Source of the DNA: Nesterenkonia sp. Act20
GTDB lineage: Bacteria; Actinomycetota; Actinomycetes; Actinomycetales; Micrococcaceae
Assembly: GCF_019173455.1 (NCBI RefSeq)
Contig: NZ_JADPQH010000001.1
Location: forward strand, 620,001-684,000
Length of the DNA: 64,000 bases
Direction of reading: 5' to 3'
Positions within the stretch are counted from its first letter, which is position 1. Every line of letters starts with the position of its first letter. The notes under the pieces were generated by a model that did no database searches, was not told where the DNA came from, and worked only from the letters and a program-made list of their open reading frames with translations. Positions 9,082-27,153 of this stretch are shown here, piece after piece. Made by a program: the position numbers and the translations under genes.

Positions 9082-11226
<2,145 letters not shown>

Positions 11227-11232
11227 AGATCA

Positions 11233-11238
11233 ATGCTA
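11233..11238 (-). promoter_or_regulatory. -10 box TAGCAT of leaderless uvrB; overlaps coaE stop
   Basis: TAGCAT stands 6 nt before the uvrB ATG, so transcription should start at or next to the start codon. Its first three bases are the TAG stop codon of coaE. Confidence 0.65.
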
Positions 11239-11850
11239 CTGCCGGGCTCTGACACGTCCCTGGAGTTTCTCGTACAGCTCATCGACCTGTCGCCACAGGT
11301 CCTCGACGGTGCCAGAGTTGTCCAGAATGACGTCCGCCGCCGCGGCCCGCTCGGCATCGGTGGCTTGTGCAGCGATGCGCGCTCTCGCGTCCTCCTCCGT
11401 GGAGCCGCGGTTCTCCACGATGCGCGTGATCCGCTGCGACTCAGGCGCCTGCACCACCAGGACCAGGTCGAACCGGTCCTGCTGGCCGGTCTCCACAAGC
11501 AGCGGAATGTCCTCGACCACCACGGTTCCCGCCGGGGCCTCCTCTCGCAGGCGTGCGGCCGCGGCACGCACCCGCGGATGCACGATCGCGTTGAGCTTTG
11601 CCCGGGCCTCCTCATCGCTGAAGACCACCCGACCCAGAGCGCCCCGGTCCAGCTCTCCGGCCTCGGTCACCAGTTCACGGCCGAAGGCCGAGACCACCTC
11701 CTCGAGTCCCGAGCTCCCGGGTTCCAGCGCCTCGCGGGCAAGGCGGTCGGCATCGACGATCAACGCCCCGTGCTCGGCCAGCCGGGCCGCCACCGCTGAT
11801 TTGCCGGAGGCGATGCCCCCGGTCAGTCCCACTGAATAGATCTCCGCCAT
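11236..11850 (-). CDS. coaE: dephospho-CoA kinase
   Basis: A 204-residue P-loop kinase that phosphorylates dephospho-CoA in the last step of coenzyme A synthesis; coaD at 39.9 kb performs the step before. The N-terminal GLTGGIASGKS is the Walker A loop. DADRLAREAL, a lid region with HPRVRA and VVEDIPLLVE follow in family order. Length is typical of the single-domain enzyme. It is transcribed with lysR upstream and uvrB downstream, but its own leaderless promoter is present. The stop TAG is shared with the uvrB -10 box. Confidence 0.96.
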   Translation of the reverse strand: MAEIYSVGLTGGIASGKSAVAARLAEHGALIVDADRLAREALEPGSSGLEEVVSAFGRELVTEAGELDRGALGRVVFSDEEARAKLNAIVHPRVRAAAARLREEAPAGTVVVEDIPLLVETGQQDRFDLVLVVQAPESQRITRIVENRGSTEEDARARIAAQATDAERAAAADVILDNSGTVEDLWRQVDELYEKLQGRVRARQ

Positions 11851-11856
11851 GCCCCG

Positions 11857-11862
11857 ATCCTA
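11857..11862 (-). promoter_or_regulatory. -10 box TAGGAT of leaderless coaE; overlaps lysR stop
   Basis: TAGGAT lies 6 nt before the coaE ATG. Its first three bases are the TAG stop of the LysR gene, the same arrangement as at uvrB. Confidence 0.65.
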
Positions 11863-12798
11863 GTGCTCAGGGCCCGGGGCGCTGCTCATGGGAACCGCGT
11901 GAGCACGCGTGACCTCCTGTCCGATCTGCACCAGCTGCTCGGTGACGGTTCTCACTGCCAGGCGCTGGAAACGATCACGTCTGCTCAGTGCGACGATGCT
12001 GCGCTCCGCGTGGACGCCGATCAGTGGCCGCAGAATCACTCCGTCGCTGGGCCGCGTGGTGAACCGGGGAAGCAGGCCGATCCCTGCACCGGCAGCGACC
12101 AGCGACTCCACGAGGTGATTGTCCCTGAGTCGAAATGAGCGGTGCGCGGGTCGACCGGTGAGCTGCTCGATGGCGAGTGGTATCGCGTCGAAGGGGTACC
12201 CTTCGGGAACACCGATCCAGTCATGGTCGACGAGATCCTCAGGGGTGAGCCGCGGCATGGAGGCCAGCGGATGCTCCCGAGGGAGCGCCACGTCGATGGG
12301 CTCCCGCGCGAGCAGCGTGCTGCTGAGACCTTCTGCGCCGATCGGGGTCTCCCCGGTGAGGCTGTGGCTGATGACGATGTCGGCATCCAGAGCACGCGCG
12401 GCGAAATCGGCCTCAGCGATGTCAAAGTCGTCGAGCGCCAGGGCAATGGCGCTCCCCCGAAGCCGTTCGACCAGCGCTGGCAGCAGCGCCTGGCCTGCGC
12501 TGGGCAAGGTGCCCACCCGCACGAGTCCACGTGGCTTCCCGGTGCTCTCCTCCAGGCGCGCCTGGAGCCTTGCGAGACTCTCAGACACCTCTTCGGCTCC
12601 TTCTGCGAGCAGCTGCCCCGCAGAGGTCAGCCGCAGCCCCCGGGAATCTGGTTCGACAAGCTTCACGCGGAGGTCGCGTTCGGCGGAGCGAAGCTGCTGG
12701 GACAGCGCCGACGGCGTTCTATGGGTGGCACGAGCCACGGCCGTGAGCGTGCCCCGTGCGGCGATCTCGCGCAGCAGCTCCAGATGACGAAGTTCCAT
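11860..12798 (-). CDS. LysR-family transcriptional regulator
   Basis: A 312-residue LysR regulator. The winged helix-turn-helix occupies about residues 1-60 (MELRHLELLREIAARGTLTA, then SALSQQLRSAERDL), followed by a periplasmic-binding-protein-like effector domain. It is divergent from an EamA transporter gene, and the 71-bp gap contains a palindromic T-N11-A site, so it most likely controls that exporter. This resembles LysR/RhtA-type pairs for amino acid or metabolite efflux. The effector is unknown. The ATG at 12798 has a -10 box 6 nt upstream and is probably leaderless. Confidence 0.92.
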   Translation of the reverse strand: MELRHLELLREIAARGTLTAVARATHRTPSALSQQLRSAERDLRVKLVEPDSRGLRLTSAGQLLAEGAEEVSESLARLQARLEESTGKPRGLVRVGTLPSAGQALLPALVERLRGSAIALALDDFDIAEADFAARALDADIVISHSLTGETPIGAEGLSSTLLAREPIDVALPREHPLASMPRLTPEDLVDHDWIGVPEGYPFDAIPLAIEQLTGRPAHRSFRLRDNHLVESLVAAGAGIGLLPRFTTRPSDGVILRPLIGVHAERSIVALSRRDRFQRLAVRTVTEQLVQIGQEVTRAHAVPMSSAPGPEH

Positions 12799-19738: not shown

Positions 19739-21136
19739 TCAGAAGTGCGTGGCACAGAACGGGGCGGTCGGCAGATCCATGATGCGGGAGATCCGCTCCA
19801 CGTCCTGCTCCGTGCTGGACCCGAGTCGACCCGCGGCGTGCAGCGTCCGGACGGAGACGTCGCCGAGATACATCGAGCCCAAGGACTCGACGCTGATCTG
19901 GAGCGAGGGCAGCTCTGCTGGGGAGGAAGCCTCCGCAGGAGTGACCGTGGCGGCGCCGTCGTTGACGCTGACCGTGAAGTGGCCACCGGTGATTCCCAAC
20001 GGATCCTCCACCTTGAGGGCGAACTCGCCATCGCCGTTGAACGCACGGGCCTCGAGCGCCTTCTTCACGTCGAGGATCCGCACCCAGAGCAGATCCCTGA
20101 GTGACTCCACCCGATAGCTGCGCGGATTCACCAGCGCCGCCTGCAGCGGGTCCACGAGCGGCGCGGTGCGCATGGTCGCCCGACGGACGAGGTCGAGGCT
20201 CGCCACGTAGTTCCAGAGGGCGAGATGACTCTGGTCATCCCCGGCGATCAGGTCGTAGAGGCGGATGGTGCTGGGCTCGGTGTCCCAGCCTTCGTGCTTG
20301 AAGGTGACATACCCGCCGACGCTGCCGTCCTCGCGGATGTGGACCGCGGCGCGGAGGTTCCGGTTCCACGCGCTCTGGTCCTCGGGGTTCAGCCGTGCGG
20401 TGCTGATCATCTGATAGGTCTGCTGACGCCCGATGGATCCGCGGGTGCGTGCATGGAACGCAGCGAAGCTGGTGCCGATGACCTCGTCGAGCTTGACCGG
20501 ATCGGCGGAGATCACCCGGCCGGGGGGCTGGGTGCGCAGGGCGAACCCCTCCCCGGTGCCCTCGCCCAGATCCACCCGGATCCGTGCCTCCCGGGTGGCG
20601 CAGCCGAAGCCGAAGCGGCCGTAGATGCCGCCCTCGGAGACGGTCAGCGCGGCGACCGGCAGCCCGTCCGCCACGGCCCGGGAGAGTGCGGAGGTCATCA
20701 GGTGCTTGAGGATGCCTCGGCGGCGGAAGCTTGGGTTCACCGTCACCACGGTGATCAGCCGCGCCGGCAGCGGACCGTTCGGGCCACCCGCATTGAGGGT
20801 CTTGTCATAGTCCACGAAGGTGCCCACGGGGTGCTCGGCGTCGAAGCCGACCTCTGCGAGCGCGGGGCCCCAATACTCCTGGGAAGCAGCATCGCGGTCC
20901 ACATAGACCGCGGAGAGAGTCTGCTCGTCGGCCACCAGGGCTCGCCCGATCCGGTCGATCTGTTCATCGGAGAACCACGGCTCGTAGAAGCCCTGTTCGG
21001 CGGTCCGGGCGAAGGCGGCCGTCTGGGGGTTCACGGACTTGCCATCCGTGGTCAGCGCCGCGGGGAAGGTCTCGCTGCGCAGCCCCTTCGCCAGGGGTGC
21101 GATCGCGGGCTGCTGGGGTGCCTGTAGGTCTGCCAC
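19739..21136 (-). CDS. Eis-like GNAT-family N-acetyltransferase
   Basis: A 465-residue protein of the Eis family, which has tandem GNAT domains and an SCP2-like C-terminal domain. Diagnostic are the acetyl-CoA segment RRRGILKHLMTSALSRA, the SEGGIYGRFGFG block and the C-terminal PFCATHF: in Eis the terminal carboxylate of the last Phe serves as catalytic base. Mycobacterial Eis acetylates aminoglycosides and other amines at several positions; the natural substrate here is unknown. GTG 21136 is used as start. The gene is upstream of rpsA on the same strand, with the rpsA promoter just beyond its stop. Confidence 0.9.
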   Translation of the reverse strand: MADLQAPQQPAIAPLAKGLRSETFPAALTTDGKSVNPQTAAFARTAEQGFYEPWFSDEQIDRIGRALVADEQTLSAVYVDRDAASQEYWGPALAEVGFDAEHPVGTFVDYDKTLNAGGPNGPLPARLITVVTVNPSFRRRGILKHLMTSALSRAVADGLPVAALTVSEGGIYGRFGFGCATREARIRVDLGEGTGEGFALRTQPPGRVISADPVKLDEVIGTSFAAFHARTRGSIGRQQTYQMISTARLNPEDQSAWNRNLRAAVHIREDGSVGGYVTFKHEGWDTEPSTIRLYDLIAGDDQSHLALWNYVASLDLVRRATMRTAPLVDPLQAALVNPRSYRVESLRDLLWVRILDVKKALEARAFNGDGEFALKVEDPLGITGGHFTVSVNDGAATVTPAEASSPAELPSLQISVESLGSMYLGDVSVRTLHAAGRLGSSTEQDVERISRIMDLPTAPFCATHF

Positions 21137-21158: not shown

Positions 21159-21720
21159 GAGGTGCAGGTGCCAGACGAGGCGCGACTGGTGCCCATCAGG
21201 CAAGGCGTCTATGCCTCGAGCCGCGCGCCAGGTGGGGCTGCACGCAGAACCTGGGCGGTTGAGTCATCCCGCGCCGTTGCGTGAGCCTCCGCTCCCCCGC
21301 GGCGTGACGCGGGCGGAGCTTCGCGCAGCCTCGGCAGCAGACCGTGTGATCCCGAGTGAGCAGATGACACCGGCGTGCCTCGCTGGACTGACCTCAGATT
21401 CGGCCGGTCTGACGGCCTCGGTGGAGCCGCTCGCCCTCGCACTGCTGGACACGGTGCCCCGTATGCCCTTCGATCCAGCGGTCGTGGTGTTTTATGCCGC
21501 GCTCGGGCGAATCACCAAGACCGAGCTCCCTCGAGGAGGCCCTGTCGCAGTGGCGGCCCCTTCTCTGCACCAGGCGGTTTCGTGCGGCCTGGGACCGCGC
21601 CGTCGACTTCGCGGACCCACGTTGCGCGAGGATGCCATCCGCAGCACCGGTCGGCGGGTGGTGCGCTGGAGCTGGGAGGCTCAGCGGAGCCTTCGAGAAG
21701 ACTTCAGGGGCCGCTCAGGA
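21159..21720 (+). pseudogene. decayed DUF559/AbiEi-like (Vsr-fold endonuclease) gene
   Basis: No intact gene fills the ~570 bp between the Eis-like start and the isomerase stop, but pieces of one protein family occur in order on the plus strand in shifting frames. ARLVPIRQGVYASS (21180-21220) looks like the N-terminal winged-helix segment. SVEPLALALLDTVPRMPF followed by DPAVVVFYAALGR (about 21418-21510) resembles the family middle. LSQWRPLLCTRRFRAAWDRA then VDFADPR (about 21545-21625) is in another frame. REDAIRSTGRRVVRWSWEA (about 21630-21690) is the typical C-terminus. At least two frameshifts are needed, and the Vsr-like core between DPR and RED is missing. The identification is from recalled family patterns and needs a profile search. 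Confidence 0.6.
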
Positions 21721-22558
21721 CGGGTGGTGTCACGGCGCTTTCGCCGACACGTCCTGCTGCGAGCGGGAGGAGGGGGTACCGCTCCGTCGGTCCGGGTCCG
21801 GACTGCTCACGGTTCGCCGTGGTGCGCAGCAGCGTCTGCCCTTCGCCGTTCGCGAACTTCGCCAACCGCCGCAGCCCGGCCCACACGATGGCCTGGTTGG
21901 CGGTGATGATGGGCTTCCCCAGTTCGGCCTCGAGCGGTGCGATGAGGTCGTACGTCGGAAGATTGGTGCAGCTGACCACGACGACCTCGGCGGCGGGCGT
22001 ATTGGCCCGGCGGATCAGCTCCGCGGTCTGCGCATAAGGGACCTCCCAGATACGCCCATCGAGCCCGAGCTCCGCGCTGCCGGTCACGGTGACGCCGTAT
22101 TCATGGAGGAAGGATTCCAGCAGCAGCGACAACGACGGCGTATATGGGGTCGCCGTCGAGACCCTTGTGATGCCAAGGACGGAGAGCGCTTCGACGATCG
22201 CACCGGAGGACGTCACCGCCTCGCGCGCTCCGACATCCGTCATCGCGCGCACGAGATCCTCCTGCCCTGCCCGACCACGCACGAAGCTTCCGGATGTGCA
22301 GGCGTACAGGACCACGTCCGCACGACCGGCCGTGACGCGGCGGACGCCATCGGTGACGACACTCGTCTCCGCCACCTCCCGTGCGAACTCCACCGTGACG
22401 ACGTCGTCCAGAAACGGAGTCCTGGTCATCAGCAGGTCGACATCGCCGGGGAGCCAACGCCACAGCTCTGCGTCGAGCTCCATGTCGAACGGCGTGACGA
22501 CACCGATCGCCGCGCGGATGGGCGGGCCAGACGGGAGGCCCTGAACTTCCGGTGCCAT
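21704..22558 (-). CDS. maleate cis-trans isomerase / arylmalonate decarboxylase family protein
   Basis: A 284-residue member of the Asp/Glu racemase superfamily, AMDase/maleate isomerase branch. Both catalytic cysteines are present: YACTSGSF (Cys87) and VVSCTNLPT (Cys197), followed by PIITANQAIVWAGLRRL. A two-cysteine site predicts isomerase or racemase chemistry rather than decarboxylation. The last ~45 residues look like a loose tail running into the decayed gene. ATG 22558 has AGGAG 5 nt upstream and is preferred to 22600. It is downstream of the DUF3830 gene on the same strand, and a paralogue lies at 23383 on the other strand. The substrate is unknown. Confidence 0.88.
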   Translation of the reverse strand: MAPEVQGLPSGPPIRAAIGVVTPFDMELDAELWRWLPGDVDLLMTRTPFLDDVVTVEFAREVAETSVVTDGVRRVTAGRADVVLYACTSGSFVRGRAGQEDLVRAMTDVGAREAVTSSGAIVEALSVLGITRVSTATPYTPSLSLLLESFLHEYGVTVTGSAELGLDGRIWEVPYAQTAELIRRANTPAAEVVVVSCTNLPTYDLIAPLEAELGKPIITANQAIVWAGLRRLAKFANGEGQTLLRTTANREQSGPGPTERYPLLPLAAGRVGESAVTPPVLSGP

Positions 22559-22752
22559 GTGTGCTCCTAGACCTGGCAGGAATGTTGGCGTGAAGTACAA
22601 AGGTTCGCCTAGGGTGCCCCGTCACAGCTGATCCGCACTGTGTCAGGAGAATTCTGACTATAGGGGCTACCACCCGCACGGAGGTTTCCAGCAGATGAAG
22701 ACCGTGGAAGAGCCTGCGCCCCGGGACCAACCGGTTCGAACCTGGGATCGGC

Positions 22753-23265
22753 TCAGGGGGTCAGAGGCCCCTCGGCGCGAGCAAAGCTCAGCGTCTCCCC
22801 GCGGGCGCCACCCATCCACACGTCCTGGCATGCGGCGGCAAGCTCGGCGAGCCCCTCCTCGATCGTCGCGAAGACGTTCCCCGGGACCCACCCAACGTCG
22901 CCGTTGACCAGCAGATTGTTGCGCCCATAGAAGACGGCGAGGTCGATCAACAATCGGTTCTCGGCGGTTCCCGCAGACGCCTCGTATCCGTAGGCGGGAT
23001 TCTCCAGCACGCCCTCGAAGGTGAAGTAGCAGAGGTCCCCCGGAATCGGCGTGATCGTCTGGTTCTCCGGACCGGGTTCCTCGGCGGCGAAGGCGGGGAA
23101 CAGTGCGTAGACCTCATTGCGTGCGAACTTTCCGTGAAAAACCTGCCCGGACTGGGGAAGAGCTTTCCACACGGCCTCGGCGGTGCGGGGGGCTTCCTCG
23201 TCGAGCAGTCGGGCTCGGGCGGTGACGCCGCGCTTCTCCAGCGTGACGGTGAGATACCGGGCCAT
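22753..23265 (-). CDS. DUF3830 family protein (cyclophilin-like fold)
   Basis: A 170-residue protein without signal peptide or membrane segment. Family blocks are YLTVTLEKRGVTARARLLDE, FHGKFARNEVYALF, ENQTITPIPGDLCYF, LAVFYGRNNLL and DVGWVPGNVFATI. DUF3830 proteins have a predicted beta-barrel, cyclophilin-like fold and no established function. From memory they often sit beside AMDase/isomerase-like genes, as here. ATG 23265 has GGAG 8 nt upstream. The gene shares a divergent promoter region with the isomerase-like gene at 23383. A role as substrate-binding or accessory enzyme for the same pathway is inference. Confidence 0.85.
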   Translation of the reverse strand: MARYLTVTLEKRGVTARARLLDEEAPRTAEAVWKALPQSGQVFHGKFARNEVYALFPAFAAEEPGPENQTITPIPGDLCYFTFEGVLENPAYGYEASAGTAENRLLIDLAVFYGRNNLLVNGDVGWVPGNVFATIEEGLAELAAACQDVWMGGARGETLSFARAEGPLTP

Positions 23266-23320
23266 CAGCAGTCTCCATTCGACGGAGGGAAGGCGTCACA
23301 CAACGGCACCCTATGAATGT

Positions 23321-23337
23321 CTACAACTTAACTGTAG
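23321..23337. promoter_or_regulatory. candidate operator CTACA-N7-TGTAG in divergent promoter
   Basis: A perfect 5-bp inverted repeat with 7-bp spacer lies in the only AT-rich part of the 117-bp gap between the DUF3830 gene and the plus-strand isomerase-like gene. Possible -10 boxes overlap or flank it: TAGGTT at 23335-23340 on plus and TAGGGT at 23308-23313 on minus. The spacing resembles GntR- or TetR-type sites; no regulator is adjacent. Confidence 0.45.
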
Positions 23338-23382
23338 GTTTTCCGGGAAGACACGCAATGCCTCACGAGAAGCCAGGCCGCC

Positions 23383-24093
23383 ATGCACACCGTCGCCATC
23401 CTTTACCCCGGCCACAGTGCGGAGGACGAGTACCCCGCCCTCGAGCAGCTCATCCCAGACACCTCCTTCCCAGTGATCCACACCTGGGAGGGCAGCACCG
23501 ACCACGACGTCGACGCGTTGCTGACCCTGGGCTCTCGAACCAACCTGGTTCCCTCCGCGGAGAAGGCCCGCGAGTTCGCGCCCGGAGCCGCGATGTGGGC
23601 CTGCACCTCGGGCAGCTTCGTCTATGGCCTGGATGGATGCCGGGAGCAGGCCGGGTGGATCGAGCGGGCCGTCGGCGTCCCGTCCTCCTCCACTTCCCTG
23701 GCGTTCGCGGAGGCCGTGCGCCACTTAGGTCTGAGCAAGGTCGCGGTGGCCGCGACATACCCGGAGGAGGTCGCCTCCCACTTCCTCCGATTCCTGGAGC
23801 AGGATGGGATCACGGTGACGGCGCTGTCCGCCTACCACGTTCCCAGCGGCGAGGATGCTGGCCTGTTGGACGCCGAGTGGGTGCTCGAGACCGCCCGCGC
23901 CGCCGATCTCACCGGCGCGCAGTGTCTGCTGATCCCCGACACCGCCCTGCACACGATCGCCCTGCTGCCGAGACTCGAGAAGGCCCTGGGCGTTCCCGTG
24001 CTCACTGCCAACCAGGTCACAGCCTGGCAGGGGCTGCGATCGGCAGGCCATCCCGCTCGCGCCGAGGGTCTCGGGGCACTCTTCAGCTGCTGA
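23383..24093 (+). CDS. Asp/Glu-racemase-superfamily enzyme with Cys-to-Asp change at second catalytic position
   Basis: A 236-residue relative of maleate isomerase and arylmalonate decarboxylase. The first catalytic block is intact: MWACTSGSFVYG (Cys74). At the second block the paralogue has SCTNLPT, while this protein reads LLIPDTALHT, placing Asp186 where Cys is expected. PVLTANQVTAWQGLRSAG then follows as normal. One catalytic Cys plus one Asp suggests altered chemistry: a lyase, hydrolase or one-sided isomerase. It is divergent from the DUF3830 gene over a shared promoter region and convergent with polA. ATG 23383 is the only sensible start. Superfamily is certain; reaction is unknown. 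Confidence 0.85.
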   Translation: MHTVAILYPGHSAEDEYPALEQLIPDTSFPVIHTWEGSTDHDVDALLTLGSRTNLVPSAEKAREFAPGAAMWACTSGSFVYGLDGCREQAGWIERAVGVPSSSTSLAFAEAVRHLGLSKVAVAATYPEEVASHFLRFLEQDGITVTALSAYHVPSGEDAGLLDAEWVLETARAADLTGAQCLLIPDTALHTIALLPRLEKALGVPVLTANQVTAWQGLRSAGHPARAEGLGALFSC

Positions 24094-24140
24094 GCAGGCC
24101 GACTGCCGGAATCAGCTCGGGAGATCTGCAGCGCCCTCGC

Positions 24141-27026
24141 CTAGTGTGCGGCTTCGTGCCAGGAGGAGCCCACGCCCACATGCACGTCCAGCGGGACGTC
24201 GAGTTCCGCGGCGGCGCCCATGTGGGTCACCACCAGGGTCTCCAGGGCTTCACGCTCCCCCGCGGCCACCTCGAAGATGAGCTCATCGTGGACCTGCAGC
24301 AGCAGCCGGGACTTGAGTCCCTCCGCGCGCATGGCTGAGTCCACGCCGATCATCGCCTGCTTGATGATGTCCGCCGCGGAACCCTGGATGGGGGCGTTCA
24401 GCGCAGCGCGTTCGGCCATCTGGCGCAGCTGCCGATTCTCACTGGTCAGGTCCGGCAGGTAGCGACGACGCCCGAAGATGGTCGAGGTGAACCCGTCCTT
24501 CTTGGCCTGGGTGACCACCTCACGCAGATAGTCCCGGACTCCGCCGAAGCGCTCAAAGTACTCATTCATCAGGTTCCGAGCCTCATCGACTCCAATGCCG
24601 AGCTGCTTGGAGAGCCCGAAGCTGGACAGCCCATAGGCCAACCCGTAGCTCATGGCCTTGACCTTCGAGCGCTGCTCGGGCGTGATCTCGGAGGCGTCCA
24701 CGCCGAAGACCCGGGAACCGACGAAGCTGTGCAGGTCCTCCCCTGCCCGGAAGGCCTCGATCAGTGCCTGGTCCTGAGACAGGTGGGCCATGATGCGCAT
24801 CTCGATCTGCGAGTAGTCTGCGGTGAGCAGGGTCTCGTAGCCGGAGCCGACCACGAAGGCGTCACGGATCTTCCGTCCCGCCGCGGTGCGCACCGGAATG
24901 TTCTGCAGGTTCGGGTTGAGCGACGAGAGTCGACCCGTGGCGGCCACAGTCTGCGCATAGGTGGTGTGGATCCGCCCATCCCCGGTGATCGTCTCAGTCA
25001 GACCCGTGACGGTCTGGCGCAGTCTGCTGGAGTCCCTATGGTTCATCAGGTGCACCAGAAAGTCGTTCTGCGTCTTGATCAGCAGCGCCTGCAGGGTCTC
25101 CACATCGGTGGAGTACCCGGTCTTGTTCTTCTTCACCCCTGCGGTGGGGAGCTCGAGCTCCTCGAAGAGCACGGTCTGCAGCTGCTTGGGCGAGCCCAGC
25201 TTCACCTCATGCCCCACCACCGCGTAGGCGTCCTGCGCCGACTGCTCGATGGCGGCGGCGAACTCCGCGTCCAGCGACTCCAGCTTCTCGGTGCTCACGG
25301 CGATCCCGGTGAGCTCCATCTGCAGCAGGATCTCGGCCAGCGGGATCTCCATCTCCCGCAGCAGCTTCTCGCCGTTGCGCTCCACCAGCTGCTCCCCCAA
25401 CGCCTGAGAGAGCTGATGCAGCAGCATCCCATGCAGAGCCGCAGCGTCCAGATCCTCCGCGGTGACCCCGGGAAGCAGGTCCTGGGAGGAGAACAGGTCA
25501 GGCCCCTGGGAACCGGGCGCCTCGGCGTCGTCGGCGCTGTGGCCTCCGAGGTAGGAGGCCGGATCGGTGGAAGCACCCAGGTACTGGGTGACCAGCTCGG
25601 TGAAGGCGAAGTTCCGGCGATCCGGCTGGATCAGGTACCCGGAGATCAGCGTGTCCTCCACGGCCCCGCGCAGGTGCAGCCCACGCCAGGCCAGCCGCTT
25701 GCCGGCGTCCTTGATGTCATGGACCAGCTTCGGCGCCTCCGGATCCTGCAGCCACTCCGCAAGCACTGCATCGGCCTTCGCGTCGAGGGCGCTCAGCGAG
25801 ACCGCCATCGCGGGGAGGCCGGACGGCTCAGCGGCGGATTCCCCGGCGTCGTCATCGGTTTCGCCGGCCTCGGCAATCTCCGCCGCTTCGGTCGCCGCGG
25901 CCACCTCCCCGGAGGCTGCCGGCACCAGCACGACGGCGAGCGCCTCCGCCACGCGGGCTGCCTCGTCCCGCTTGGGCTTGGTGGTCAGCGATTCGCCGCT
26001 GCGGTCCAGGCAGAGCGCGATCGCCATCGGCGCCCCCGCGTGGGTCTTGAGGAAAGCTGCAAGCTCCTCAACCTGCTCGGTCACCATGACCGCGGGCAGC
26101 GCCTCGGTGGGCTCGGGCGCCACCACGGCCTCAGGGAAGCGCGCAGAGAAGGTCTCGAAGAGCCGTTCACGGATCTGGTTGAACTGCAGTGCGTCGAAGA
26201 GCGGGTCCAGGACCTCACGGTCGGGGAGCTGCAGCTCGGCATCCTCCAGCGCCACGGGGAGATCGAGGTCACGCAGCAGCAGGTTCAGCTCCAGGTTGCG
26301 CTCCACATCGGCGAGCGCCTCGCGGAGGTTCTCCCCCGCCTTGCCGCCGATGGCGTCCGCGTTCTCGATGATCCCGCGGGTGGAGCCGTATTCGGCGATC
26401 CACTTCGCGGCCGTCTTGGGGCCGACCTTGGGCACGCCGGGCAGGTTGTCTGCGGACTCCCCCACCAGTGCGGCGAGGTCCGGGTACTTCAGCGGCGGCA
26501 CGAGGTACTTCTCTTCCACCGCGGCCGGGTCCAGCATCGCGACCTTGGACAGGCCAGAGGTGGGGTACATCAGCGTGGTCCGTTCGGTGACCAGCTGCAG
26601 GGTGTCACGGTCCCCGGAGACGATCAGCGTCTCCCACCCGGCGGTGTCCGCACGGGTGGCGTAGGTGGCGACGATGTCATCGGCCTCGTATCCCTCCAGG
26701 GTCACCACGGCGATGTTCATCCCCTCGGCGACCTGCTTGATCAGGTCGATCTGACCGCGGAACTCCTCGGGAGTCTTCGCACGGCCGCCCTTGTACTCGG
26801 CGTAGGAGGTGTGCCGGAAGGTGGGGGTGTCCAGGTCGAAGGCGAGGATCACATGAGTGGGGAGCTCCTCGCGGATCAGCTTGAGCAGCATGTTCGTGAA
26901 GCCGTGCACCGCGTTGGTGTATTGGCCGGAATCCGTGAGGAAGCTCTCGGTGGGCAGGGCGTAGAAGGCCCTGAACGCCATGGAGTGACCGTCGATGACC
27001 AGGAGTTTATGGGGGCTAGTTGACAC
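24141..27026 (-). CDS. polA: DNA polymerase I
   Basis: A 961-residue family A polymerase for Okazaki-fragment processing and repair. The N-terminal 5'-nuclease domain includes VIDGHSMAFRAFYAL and LEGYEADDIVATYA. The middle 3'-5' exonuclease-like domain carries an Ala/Glu/Asp-rich insertion (around 25.83-25.93 kb) and appears degenerate, as is usual in Actinobacteria. The polymerase domain has motif A DYSQIEMRIMAHLS, motif B KVKAMSYGLAYG and motif C LLQVHDEL. The Tyr in SYG sits where E. coli has Phe762, which predicts weak dideoxynucleotide discrimination, as in M. tuberculosis Pol I. GTG 27026 is chosen over 27110: it places the start at a leaderless -10 and begins the conserved sequence. 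Confidence 0.97.
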   Translation of the reverse strand: MSTSPHKLLVIDGHSMAFRAFYALPTESFLTDSGQYTNAVHGFTNMLLKLIREELPTHVILAFDLDTPTFRHTSYAEYKGGRAKTPEEFRGQIDLIKQVAEGMNIAVVTLEGYEADDIVATYATRADTAGWETLIVSGDRDTLQLVTERTTLMYPTSGLSKVAMLDPAAVEEKYLVPPLKYPDLAALVGESADNLPGVPKVGPKTAAKWIAEYGSTRGIIENADAIGGKAGENLREALADVERNLELNLLLRDLDLPVALEDAELQLPDREVLDPLFDALQFNQIRERLFETFSARFPEAVVAPEPTEALPAVMVTEQVEELAAFLKTHAGAPMAIALCLDRSGESLTTKPKRDEAARVAEALAVVLVPAASGEVAAATEAAEIAEAGETDDDAGESAAEPSGLPAMAVSLSALDAKADAVLAEWLQDPEAPKLVHDIKDAGKRLAWRGLHLRGAVEDTLISGYLIQPDRRNFAFTELVTQYLGASTDPASYLGGHSADDAEAPGSQGPDLFSSQDLLPGVTAEDLDAAALHGMLLHQLSQALGEQLVERNGEKLLREMEIPLAEILLQMELTGIAVSTEKLESLDAEFAAAIEQSAQDAYAVVGHEVKLGSPKQLQTVLFEELELPTAGVKKNKTGYSTDVETLQALLIKTQNDFLVHLMNHRDSSRLRQTVTGLTETITGDGRIHTTYAQTVAATGRLSSLNPNLQNIPVRTAAGRKIRDAFVVGSGYETLLTADYSQIEMRIMAHLSQDQALIEAFRAGEDLHSFVGSRVFGVDASEITPEQRSKVKAMSYGLAYGLSSFGLSKQLGIGVDEARNLMNEYFERFGGVRDYLREVVTQAKKDGFTSTIFGRRRYLPDLTSENRQLRQMAERAALNAPIQGSAADIIKQAMIGVDSAMRAEGLKSRLLLQVHDELIFEVAAGEREALETLVVTHMGAAAELDVPLDVHVGVGSSWHEAAH

Positions 27027-27033
27027 GGTCCTC

Positions 27034-27039
27034 AGCCTA
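27034..27039 (-). promoter_or_regulatory. -10 box TAGGCT of leaderless polA
   Basis: TAGGCT lies 7 nt before GTG 27026 and supports that start over the longer frame. Confidence 0.6.
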
Positions 27040-27153
27040 TCGTGACCCCCGCCGCTCACCCCAGAGGTGCCCCGCCCCTGGCGCACCCCCGGAAGCATGC
27101 CCGGGAGCATCCCCGTGCGCCTGCACTAGGTCATTCGCTGCGCCAGCAACATC

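Follow-up and report, generated by a model that had tools for sequence, protein, structure and literature searches.

The window analysed here, a stretch of 64,000 nucleotides from the Nesterenkonia sp. Act20 genome (contig NZ_JADPQH010000001.1, positions 620,001 to 684,000), carries three genes, A, D and B, located at 0.642–0.644 Mb of the genome. D encodes a DUF3830 protein, and A and B encode two paralogous members of the Asp/Glu-racemase superfamily. The gene set is conserved in other genomes, and the trio in the Nesterenkonia genome was confirmed as a genuine gene set. Its features, in window coordinates, are as follows.

21704..22558, minus strand: A, a two-Cys member of the Asp/Glu-racemase / AMDase / maleate-isomerase superfamily, 284 amino acids from the ATG at 22558
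22753..23265, minus strand: D, a DUF3830 protein of 170 amino acids with a cyclophilin-like fold
23266..23382, no strand: divergent D/B regulatory region, 117 bp between the divergent starts of D and B
23316..23327, no strand: candidate decayed GntR-type operator AATGTCTACAAC, two mismatches to the palindrome ATTGTNNACAAT, at the position seen in relatives
23383..24093, plus strand: B, a paralogue of A of 236 amino acids, with Cys74 and with Asp186 at the position of the second catalytic Cys

D matched the Pfam family DUF3830 (PF12903) with an E-value of 2.4e-64 and 216 bits against a curated cut-off of 26. Both A (4e-24) and B (1.2e-22) exceeded the curated cut-off of the Pfam Amdase model, and both fell slightly under that of the wider Asp_Glu_race model. 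The reading frame of A is open to a TTG at 22600 (21704–22600), and the ATG at 22558, which is preceded by GGAG, is the more likely start. An earlier note on this DNA had placed all three genes on a shared promoter region; this holds for D and B, which have their upstream region in common, but not for A, which is co-directional with D and lies about 194 bp downstream of it. Nothing was found when 21500–24200 was scanned for promoters and terminators.

Co-occurrence of A, B and D

Among the 149 family genomes, all 24 positive for long-form D had a B orthologue (E below 1e-39) and none of the 125 D-negative ones did (Fisher 3e-28); each of the 24 D-positive genomes also gave a second, weaker match to the B query, which is A. 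We scored 11 of 35 family genomes as B-negative, having only weaker B matches (E 1e-15 to 1e-10); all 11 are D-negative. Two of the 26 family DUF3830 matches (G536 and G440) were dropped as lying under the cut-off. Across 396 genomes of the phylum, 18 carried D and B, one carried D only (G205), six carried B only and 371 carried neither (Fisher 4e-25), with 24 of the 43 DUF3830 genomes scored as D-negative for having the short form only. Both Fisher values overstate independence, since the genomes are related. The B-only genomes (G023, G107, G182, G193, G246 and G369) belong to a genus of the same class, g9. The partnership of DUF3830 with an isomerase-like protein, put forward in the earlier note, is thus borne out for B: within the family long-form DUF3830 and B strictly go together, and seven exceptions occur among the 396 phylum genomes. 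Rare co-occurrence, part of what the note would have counted as refutation, is therefore not what is seen.

The association extends to gene order. A and B were found in the fetched stretch at 38 of the 40 D loci from the family and phylum searches; the two exceptions were a 5-kb contig and a locus with A and B about 85 kb from D. At one locus (L065, genome G483, about 9780–12361), D and A are not adjacent but separated by about 2.6 kb, with something between them. In another phylum member (G177, contig C23, 24402–25787), three DUF3830 genes stand in tandem. A search of plasmids for long-form D returned a single record (Novosphingobium, 28% identity).

Partner genes and a shared palindrome

For the gene neighbourhood we used 115 non-redundant D loci, obtained from 120 loci (including 80 named loci from a GTDB scan) by removing five repeats on the same contig; counts over these loci miss genes that lie past contig ends or flanks. 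A or B was present in 105 of them and both in 91. The recurrent partners were an amidase (91 loci), a D-2-hydroxyacid dehydrogenase (74), a GntR regulator (68), a class-III aminotransferase (51) and an SSADH-type aldehyde dehydrogenase (47), the last two in about 40–45% of loci. The PRK06169 amidase and an M20 deacylase exceeded their curated cut-offs, and most other partner proteins fell below theirs, so that the family names given here denote a type and not a proven function. The nearest model of the GntR partner is PhnR, again below the cut-off. Further neighbours include a thiamine pyrophosphate enzyme, labelled by profile search, and proteins that we take, from reading their sequences, to be a flavin adenine dinucleotide (FAD)-linked oxidase and a RidA protein, the latter giving no NCBIfam match at 1e-15.

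The earlier note had described the trio as self-contained and unaccompanied by any transporter or known catabolic gene. Within the window this description is accurate as far as the cluster's own families, the only queries used, can tell: the 64 kb yielded A, D, B and a weak aminotransferase-like open reading frame (48 bits). One flank of the trio, at 24141–27110, is presumably polA, and the other is a GNAT acetyltransferase gene (19739–21136). Relatives of the partner genes are nevertheless found elsewhere in the genome, 0.7–0.8 Mb from the trio. At 1.381–1.384 Mb, a GntR gene, a dehydrogenase gene (product 55% identical to the query) and an amidase gene (67%) stand together; at 1.455–1.458 Mb, an SSADH-type dehydrogenase gene (58%) and a class-III aminotransferase gene (67%) are arranged divergently, this aminotransferase being the sole match in the genome at 1e-80. 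An EhuB-like ABC operon lies at 1.350 Mb, and another contig holds a second SSADH-type dehydrogenase (57%) of equal score. Because of these relatives, the idea of a self-contained three-gene unit has to be given up; the amidase, the hydroxyacid dehydrogenase and the GntR regulator belong to the set, and so, in about 40–45% of loci, do the aminotransferase and the aldehyde dehydrogenase. The same split arrangement was found in four more genomes of the genus (G460, G436, G483 and G501), and the dehydrogenase and amidase genes are kept with the trio in two others (G406 and G532), so the genus holds both joined and split arrangements. At two loci of the genus (L061 and L057), where the trio is more divergent, trio, amidase and dehydrogenase form one cluster.

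The dispersed genes are linked by a palindrome, ATTGTNNACAAT, first noticed in relatives of the window, at D/B and GntR regions that are themselves among the loci counted below. It occurs exactly in the D/B region of five of eight relatives (G460, G501, G409, G454 and G498), with one mismatch in G483 and two in G436, and was not found in that of G467. It also lies between the GntR and dehydrogenase genes of the five split Nesterenkonia genomes. Act20 itself has exactly two exact sites, at 1383457 and 1456861, both at the partner loci. Since the palindrome at D/B in five of the eight relatives also stands at partner genes, joint control of D/B and the partners is likely. Over the 115 loci, 222 exact sites were counted in 97, and 211 of these sites lay close to labelled gene starts, in a portion that makes up 19% of the bases; for the 120 loci, two order-1 Markov draws gave 0 and 0 sites and the reversed pattern gave 0. 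Eight whole genomes contained 26 exact sites, 24 of them at D/B, GntR/dehydrogenase/amidase, aminotransferase/SSADH or EutD-like genes, and the reversed pattern was absent from seven of these genomes and occurred once in G498. The two exact sites away from cluster genes (G454, contig C1, 2892484; G498, contig C1, 1533030) may mark further members of the regulon.

We infer that the palindrome is the operator of the neighbouring GntR protein. In the window, four matches with up to two mismatches were found against 3.6 expected, which means that AATGTCTACAAC is not significant by itself; because its own score is at chance, the site rests on its comparative position, by which it is probably a decayed GntR-type operator. 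A literature search with the palindrome strings returned papers that were unrelated as judged by their titles and the beginnings of their abstracts.

Active sites, folds and a possible ectoine connection

The earlier note had regarded A and B as two isomerase-like enzymes. Both are related to this group by their Amdase matches, and the nearest proteins in the PDB are AMDase and maleate isomerase; the pair of catalytic Cys residues that defines two-Cys racemases and isomerases is found in A but not in B. A has both Cys101 and Cys211 (104 of 104 aligned orthologues), the latter followed by Thr212. B has the first Cys only: Cys74 is present in 90 of 94 aligned orthologues, with Ser in the remaining four, and the second position is Asp186 in all 94, followed by Thr187. 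The predicted model of B (predicted local distance difference test, pLDDT, 97.7) fitted maleate isomerase and AMDase best, with fold matches extending to hydantoin and allantoin racemases. A shares the fold of the maleate cis-trans isomerase of Nocardia farcinica (2xec/2xed) by profile and B by model; A also shares both catalytic Cys, whereas B lacks the second, and no maleate-pathway gene occurs among the labelled neighbours.

Likeness to the Bordetella AMDase covers the fold, the Thr-Ser of the dioxyanion hole and an equivalent of Tyr126. According to Table 4 of PMC4996985, AMDases sensu stricto carry Gly74 instead of the second racemase Cys, together with Cys188 and Gly189. At the first of these positions A has Cys101 and B has Cys or Ser; Gly189 is replaced by Thr in both proteins, and Cys188 by Asp in B. 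Judged by sequence against that table, neither A nor B is an AMDase. Their scores agree with this, at 80.2 bits (A) and 77.1 bits (B) for the NCBIfam AMDase model NF052327 against a cut-off of 225, and at 90 and 61.1 bits for the EutA equivalog TIGR02990 against a cut-off of 318. A midpoint-rooted tree was built from 54 sequences: both window proteins, eight outside proteins and 44 A and B sequences picked at random. By its topology, A and B are sister groups apart from the two EutA rows. The earliest branch of the B group leads to a rhizobial protein with two Cys, so the change from Cys to Asp in B looks derived. The plasmid record with the best B match (Rhizobium jaguaris) offered no useful gene context. 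On a Bradyrhizobium megaplasmid (L218, 5983–6744), an A-like gene shares a stretch with genes annotated as ehuB, ehuD and ehuA and with a pyridoxal phosphate-dependent aminotransferase gene.

D has a close solved homologue in 3kop, the DUF3830 protein of Arthrobacter sp. FB24 (E 5.7e-81), whose entry describes an uncharacterised protein of cyclophilin-like fold. For the AlphaFold model of D (pLDDT 78.5, 14 sequences), the closest structure was 3kop; the Pictet-Spenglerases KslB and McbB came next, followed by cyclophilins (cyclophilin A) and TM1367. KslB and McbB differ in having larger chains that are only about 15–20% identical to D. Across the 14 aligned sequences, 13 polar residues do not vary: His44, Lys46, Arg49, Asn50, Glu51, Glu67, Asp77, Asp108, Arg115, Asn116, Asn117, Asn121 and Asp123. 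Because the modelled fold resembles these Pictet-Spenglerases, the substrate of D may be a cyclic imine or amidine. No paper turned up when the full text of 5.39 million open papers was searched for DUF3830.

A EutD-like protein was present in 33 of the 120 D loci (L087, at 152 bits, was excluded). Its best match among solved proteins was the ectoine hydrolase DoeA (6twk, 350 bits; next match 78 bits), and it was present in all 12 of the 115 loci that showed A without B. Strong EutD-like matches (E below 1e-100) were found in 26 of the 149 family genomes, namely 10 of the 24 D-positive and 16 of the 125 D-negative ones (p 0.002); in five of these 10 D-positive genomes the gene lies within 15 kb of D. 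We fetched 13 of the 16 D-negative genomes and found the EutD-like gene accompanied, with varying completeness, by genes for an M20 deacylase, class-I and class-III aminotransferases, an SSADH-type dehydrogenase, a hydroxyacid dehydrogenase, a ProP-like MFS transporter, a GntR regulator and what we again take to be the FAD-linked oxidase. No A, B, D or PRK06169-type amidase was detected in these 13 loci, and ATTGTNNACAAT was found in nine of them. Because EutD-like clusters without the trio share both the partners and the palindrome, A, B, D and the amidase can be read as a branch added to an ectoine-type regulon; alternatively, they look like genes that feed the same aminotransferase–SSADH trunk as that regulon. 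An EhuB-type protein above its cut-off also occurs inside some of the cluster loci.

A proposed regulon and known systems

We consider it highly probable that A, B and D belong to one regulon together with these partners. Our favoured explanation, at about even chances, is that they form an accessory branch within a catabolic regulon of Actinomycetota that is of ectoine type and under GntR control. For the ectoine-type nature of the substrate by itself our confidence stays a little short of even, with (hydroxy)ectoine as the leading guess. In the proposed scheme, the compound entering the cell would be a small nitrogenous solute, with 5-hydroxyectoine or a related cyclic amidine as the most likely candidate, and D would open or equilibrate the ring. 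The amidase would take off the acyl or amide group. Inversion or elimination at the carbon beside the carboxylate would fall to A, in which Cys would serve as acid and base on both faces, and to B, which would use one Cys and one Asp; this role is modelled on EutA, for which inversion of the hydroxyl of 5-hydroxyectoine has been proposed (PMC5924519). What is left of the carbon chain would go to the aminotransferase and the aldehyde dehydrogenase, while a 2-oxo or 2-hydroxy acid intermediate would be handled by the 2-hydroxyacid dehydrogenase. Each single step of this assignment is, taken alone, rather unlikely to be right as drawn.

Several observations weigh against an ectoine-type accessory branch. 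The EutD-like proteins score about 385–430 bits, under the EutD equivalog cut-off of 613, and no EutD-like match was found in any of the seven searched genomes of the window's genus, Act20 included. Since 33 of the 120 loci hold both proteins, D is no simple replacement for the EutD-like protein. EhuB above the cut-off occurs in 16 family genomes, eight D-positive and eight D-negative, and stands with trio genes in just two of them (G008 and G517); the Act20 transporter reaches 158 bits against the cut-off of 190.9 and lacks an exact palindrome (L211). The aminotransferase/SSADH pair could equally serve γ-aminobutyrate, and the second SSADH of Act20 scores as well as the first. In the tree, neither A nor B is closest to EutA. 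Six genomes of genus g9 have a B orthologue without long-form D and without the second match that marks A. As for the palindrome, 18 of the 115 loci have no exact site, and the one at D/B in the window is itself inexact.

The DUF3830 family at large also gives reason for doubt. Short forms from proteobacteria and haloarchaea have hydantoinase, allantoin or urate genes alongside in most of the eight records opened, so the family is not tied to ectoine; these contexts are in keeping with ring-nitrogen catabolism in general. The same regulon could accordingly act on another nitrogenous ring (hydantoin, dihydropyrimidine, lactam or ureide), with D processing the ring, A as a hydantoin-type racemase and the amidase resembling a decarbamoylase. 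The short-form genes stand beside dihydropyrimidinase in three records, and elsewhere beside two amidohydrolases and an Asp/Glu racemase, hydantoinase A/B, an amidohydrolase and a Zn-dependent hydrolase, uricase and allantoin-type genes, or ureidoglycine aminohydrolase, with one near urea carboxylase; the reach of the B fold to hydantoin and allantoin racemases fits as well. The actinobacterial long-form clusters, however, have no hydantoinase or urate gene among their labelled recurrent neighbours, which are not every neighbour, and the labelled ones include EutD-like, EhuB-type, class-III aminotransferase and SSADH-type genes. We regard another ring as unlikely, though it is the strongest competitor. 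Less probable still, at a low likelihood, is that D helps in folding or acts as a regulatory partner and has no enzymatic role, with A and B ordinary racemases; the matches to cyclophilin A and TM1367 would suit such a function, whereas the invariance of 13 polar residues and the position of small-molecule Pictet-Spenglerases as nearest solved neighbours after 3kop argue for catalysis.

Isomerisation generally needs both Cys, and A has them. This, and the AMDase and maleate isomerase structures nearest to A and B, would suit a maleate, maleamate or alkyl/aryl-malonate pathway in which the amidase yields a diacid that A isomerises or decarboxylates; a dicarboxylic or aryl-malonic acid was also the substrate suggested in the earlier note. 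Such a pathway is very improbable and was rejected for mismatches in both active site and gene context. The residues at the Gly74 and Gly189 positions of A and B, and at Cys188 in B, depart from AMDase. Asp39 is invariant in A (104 of 104 aligned orthologues), at an N-terminal site where two of the eight outside proteins have Asn and both EutA rows have Asp, in a part of the alignment that is gappy. Aminotransferase, SSADH-type and EhuB-type genes do not suit a diacid, and the partners point instead to a nitrogenous compound of amide or amidine type. The pantothenate, nicotine/maleamate and arginine-oxygenase routes each fit only part of the gene set.

The boldest reading would make DUF3830 a new ring-processing hydrolase of cyclic amidines or imines that, with the PRK06169 amidase and A/B, provides a second route in Actinomycetota, for hydroxyectoine or a related tetrahydropyrimidine, independent of EutD/EutBC, and would make the Cys/Asp pair of B a new catalytic version of the Asp/Glu-racemase fold. 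This is speculative, and we think it unlikely to hold in full. At a more general level, co-occurrence, gene order and the shared palindrome tie DUF3830 to one regulon, which makes its role testable with a few compounds and one regulator and gives an orphan family, with a solved structure and no assigned function, its first testable role. With its invariant Asp, B offers a naturally occurring exception to the Cys pair that can be compared with the engineered Gly74Cys-Cys188Ser AMDase (3ixl, by its title), and it therefore bears on how the fold chooses its proton face. The regulon also names candidate genes, a candidate regulator and a likely operator for ectoine use in Gram-positive bacteria, which PMC13188858 calls provisional.

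In that paper (PMC13188858, 2026), the ectoine clusters of Actinomycetota are assigned by EutD homology, provisionally and without confirmation. Its putative Gram-positive clusters resemble ours in having a EutD homologue, an aminotransferase, an amidohydrolase, an aldehyde dehydrogenase and MFS or Ehu transport, and differ by the PucR, EutB and EutC described for Bacillota; its main text mentions neither DUF3830 nor GntR, and overlap in single genes is possible through its Figure 7. Among the matches listed in literature searches on Nesterenkonia ectoine degradation and actinobacterial ectoine hydrolase, no title indicated a paper on this cluster. EutB, EutC and EutE were absent from the labelled neighbour families, though no search aimed at these three proteins was made. 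Compared with the known catabolism of the stress protectant ectoine and of 5-hydroxyectoine (ehuABCD-eutABCDE-atf-ssd, where EutD corresponds to DoeA), the present loci add DUF3830, the Cys/Asp paralogue B, the PRK06169 amidase, a 2-hydroxyacid dehydrogenase and a GntR regulator with PhnR as its nearest model, and in the window's genome the genes are scattered. The known system has, by contrast, a regulator of MocR/GabR type, EnuR (PMC8739950); a regulator of the GntR superfamily is common to both. Shared as well are the class-III aminotransferase, the SSADH-type dehydrogenase, an AMDase-like protein comparable to EutA and, in part of the loci, the EutD-like protein and EhuB-type transport. 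An orphan protein family appears to stand at the core of a catabolic system that resembles the known ectoine pathway.

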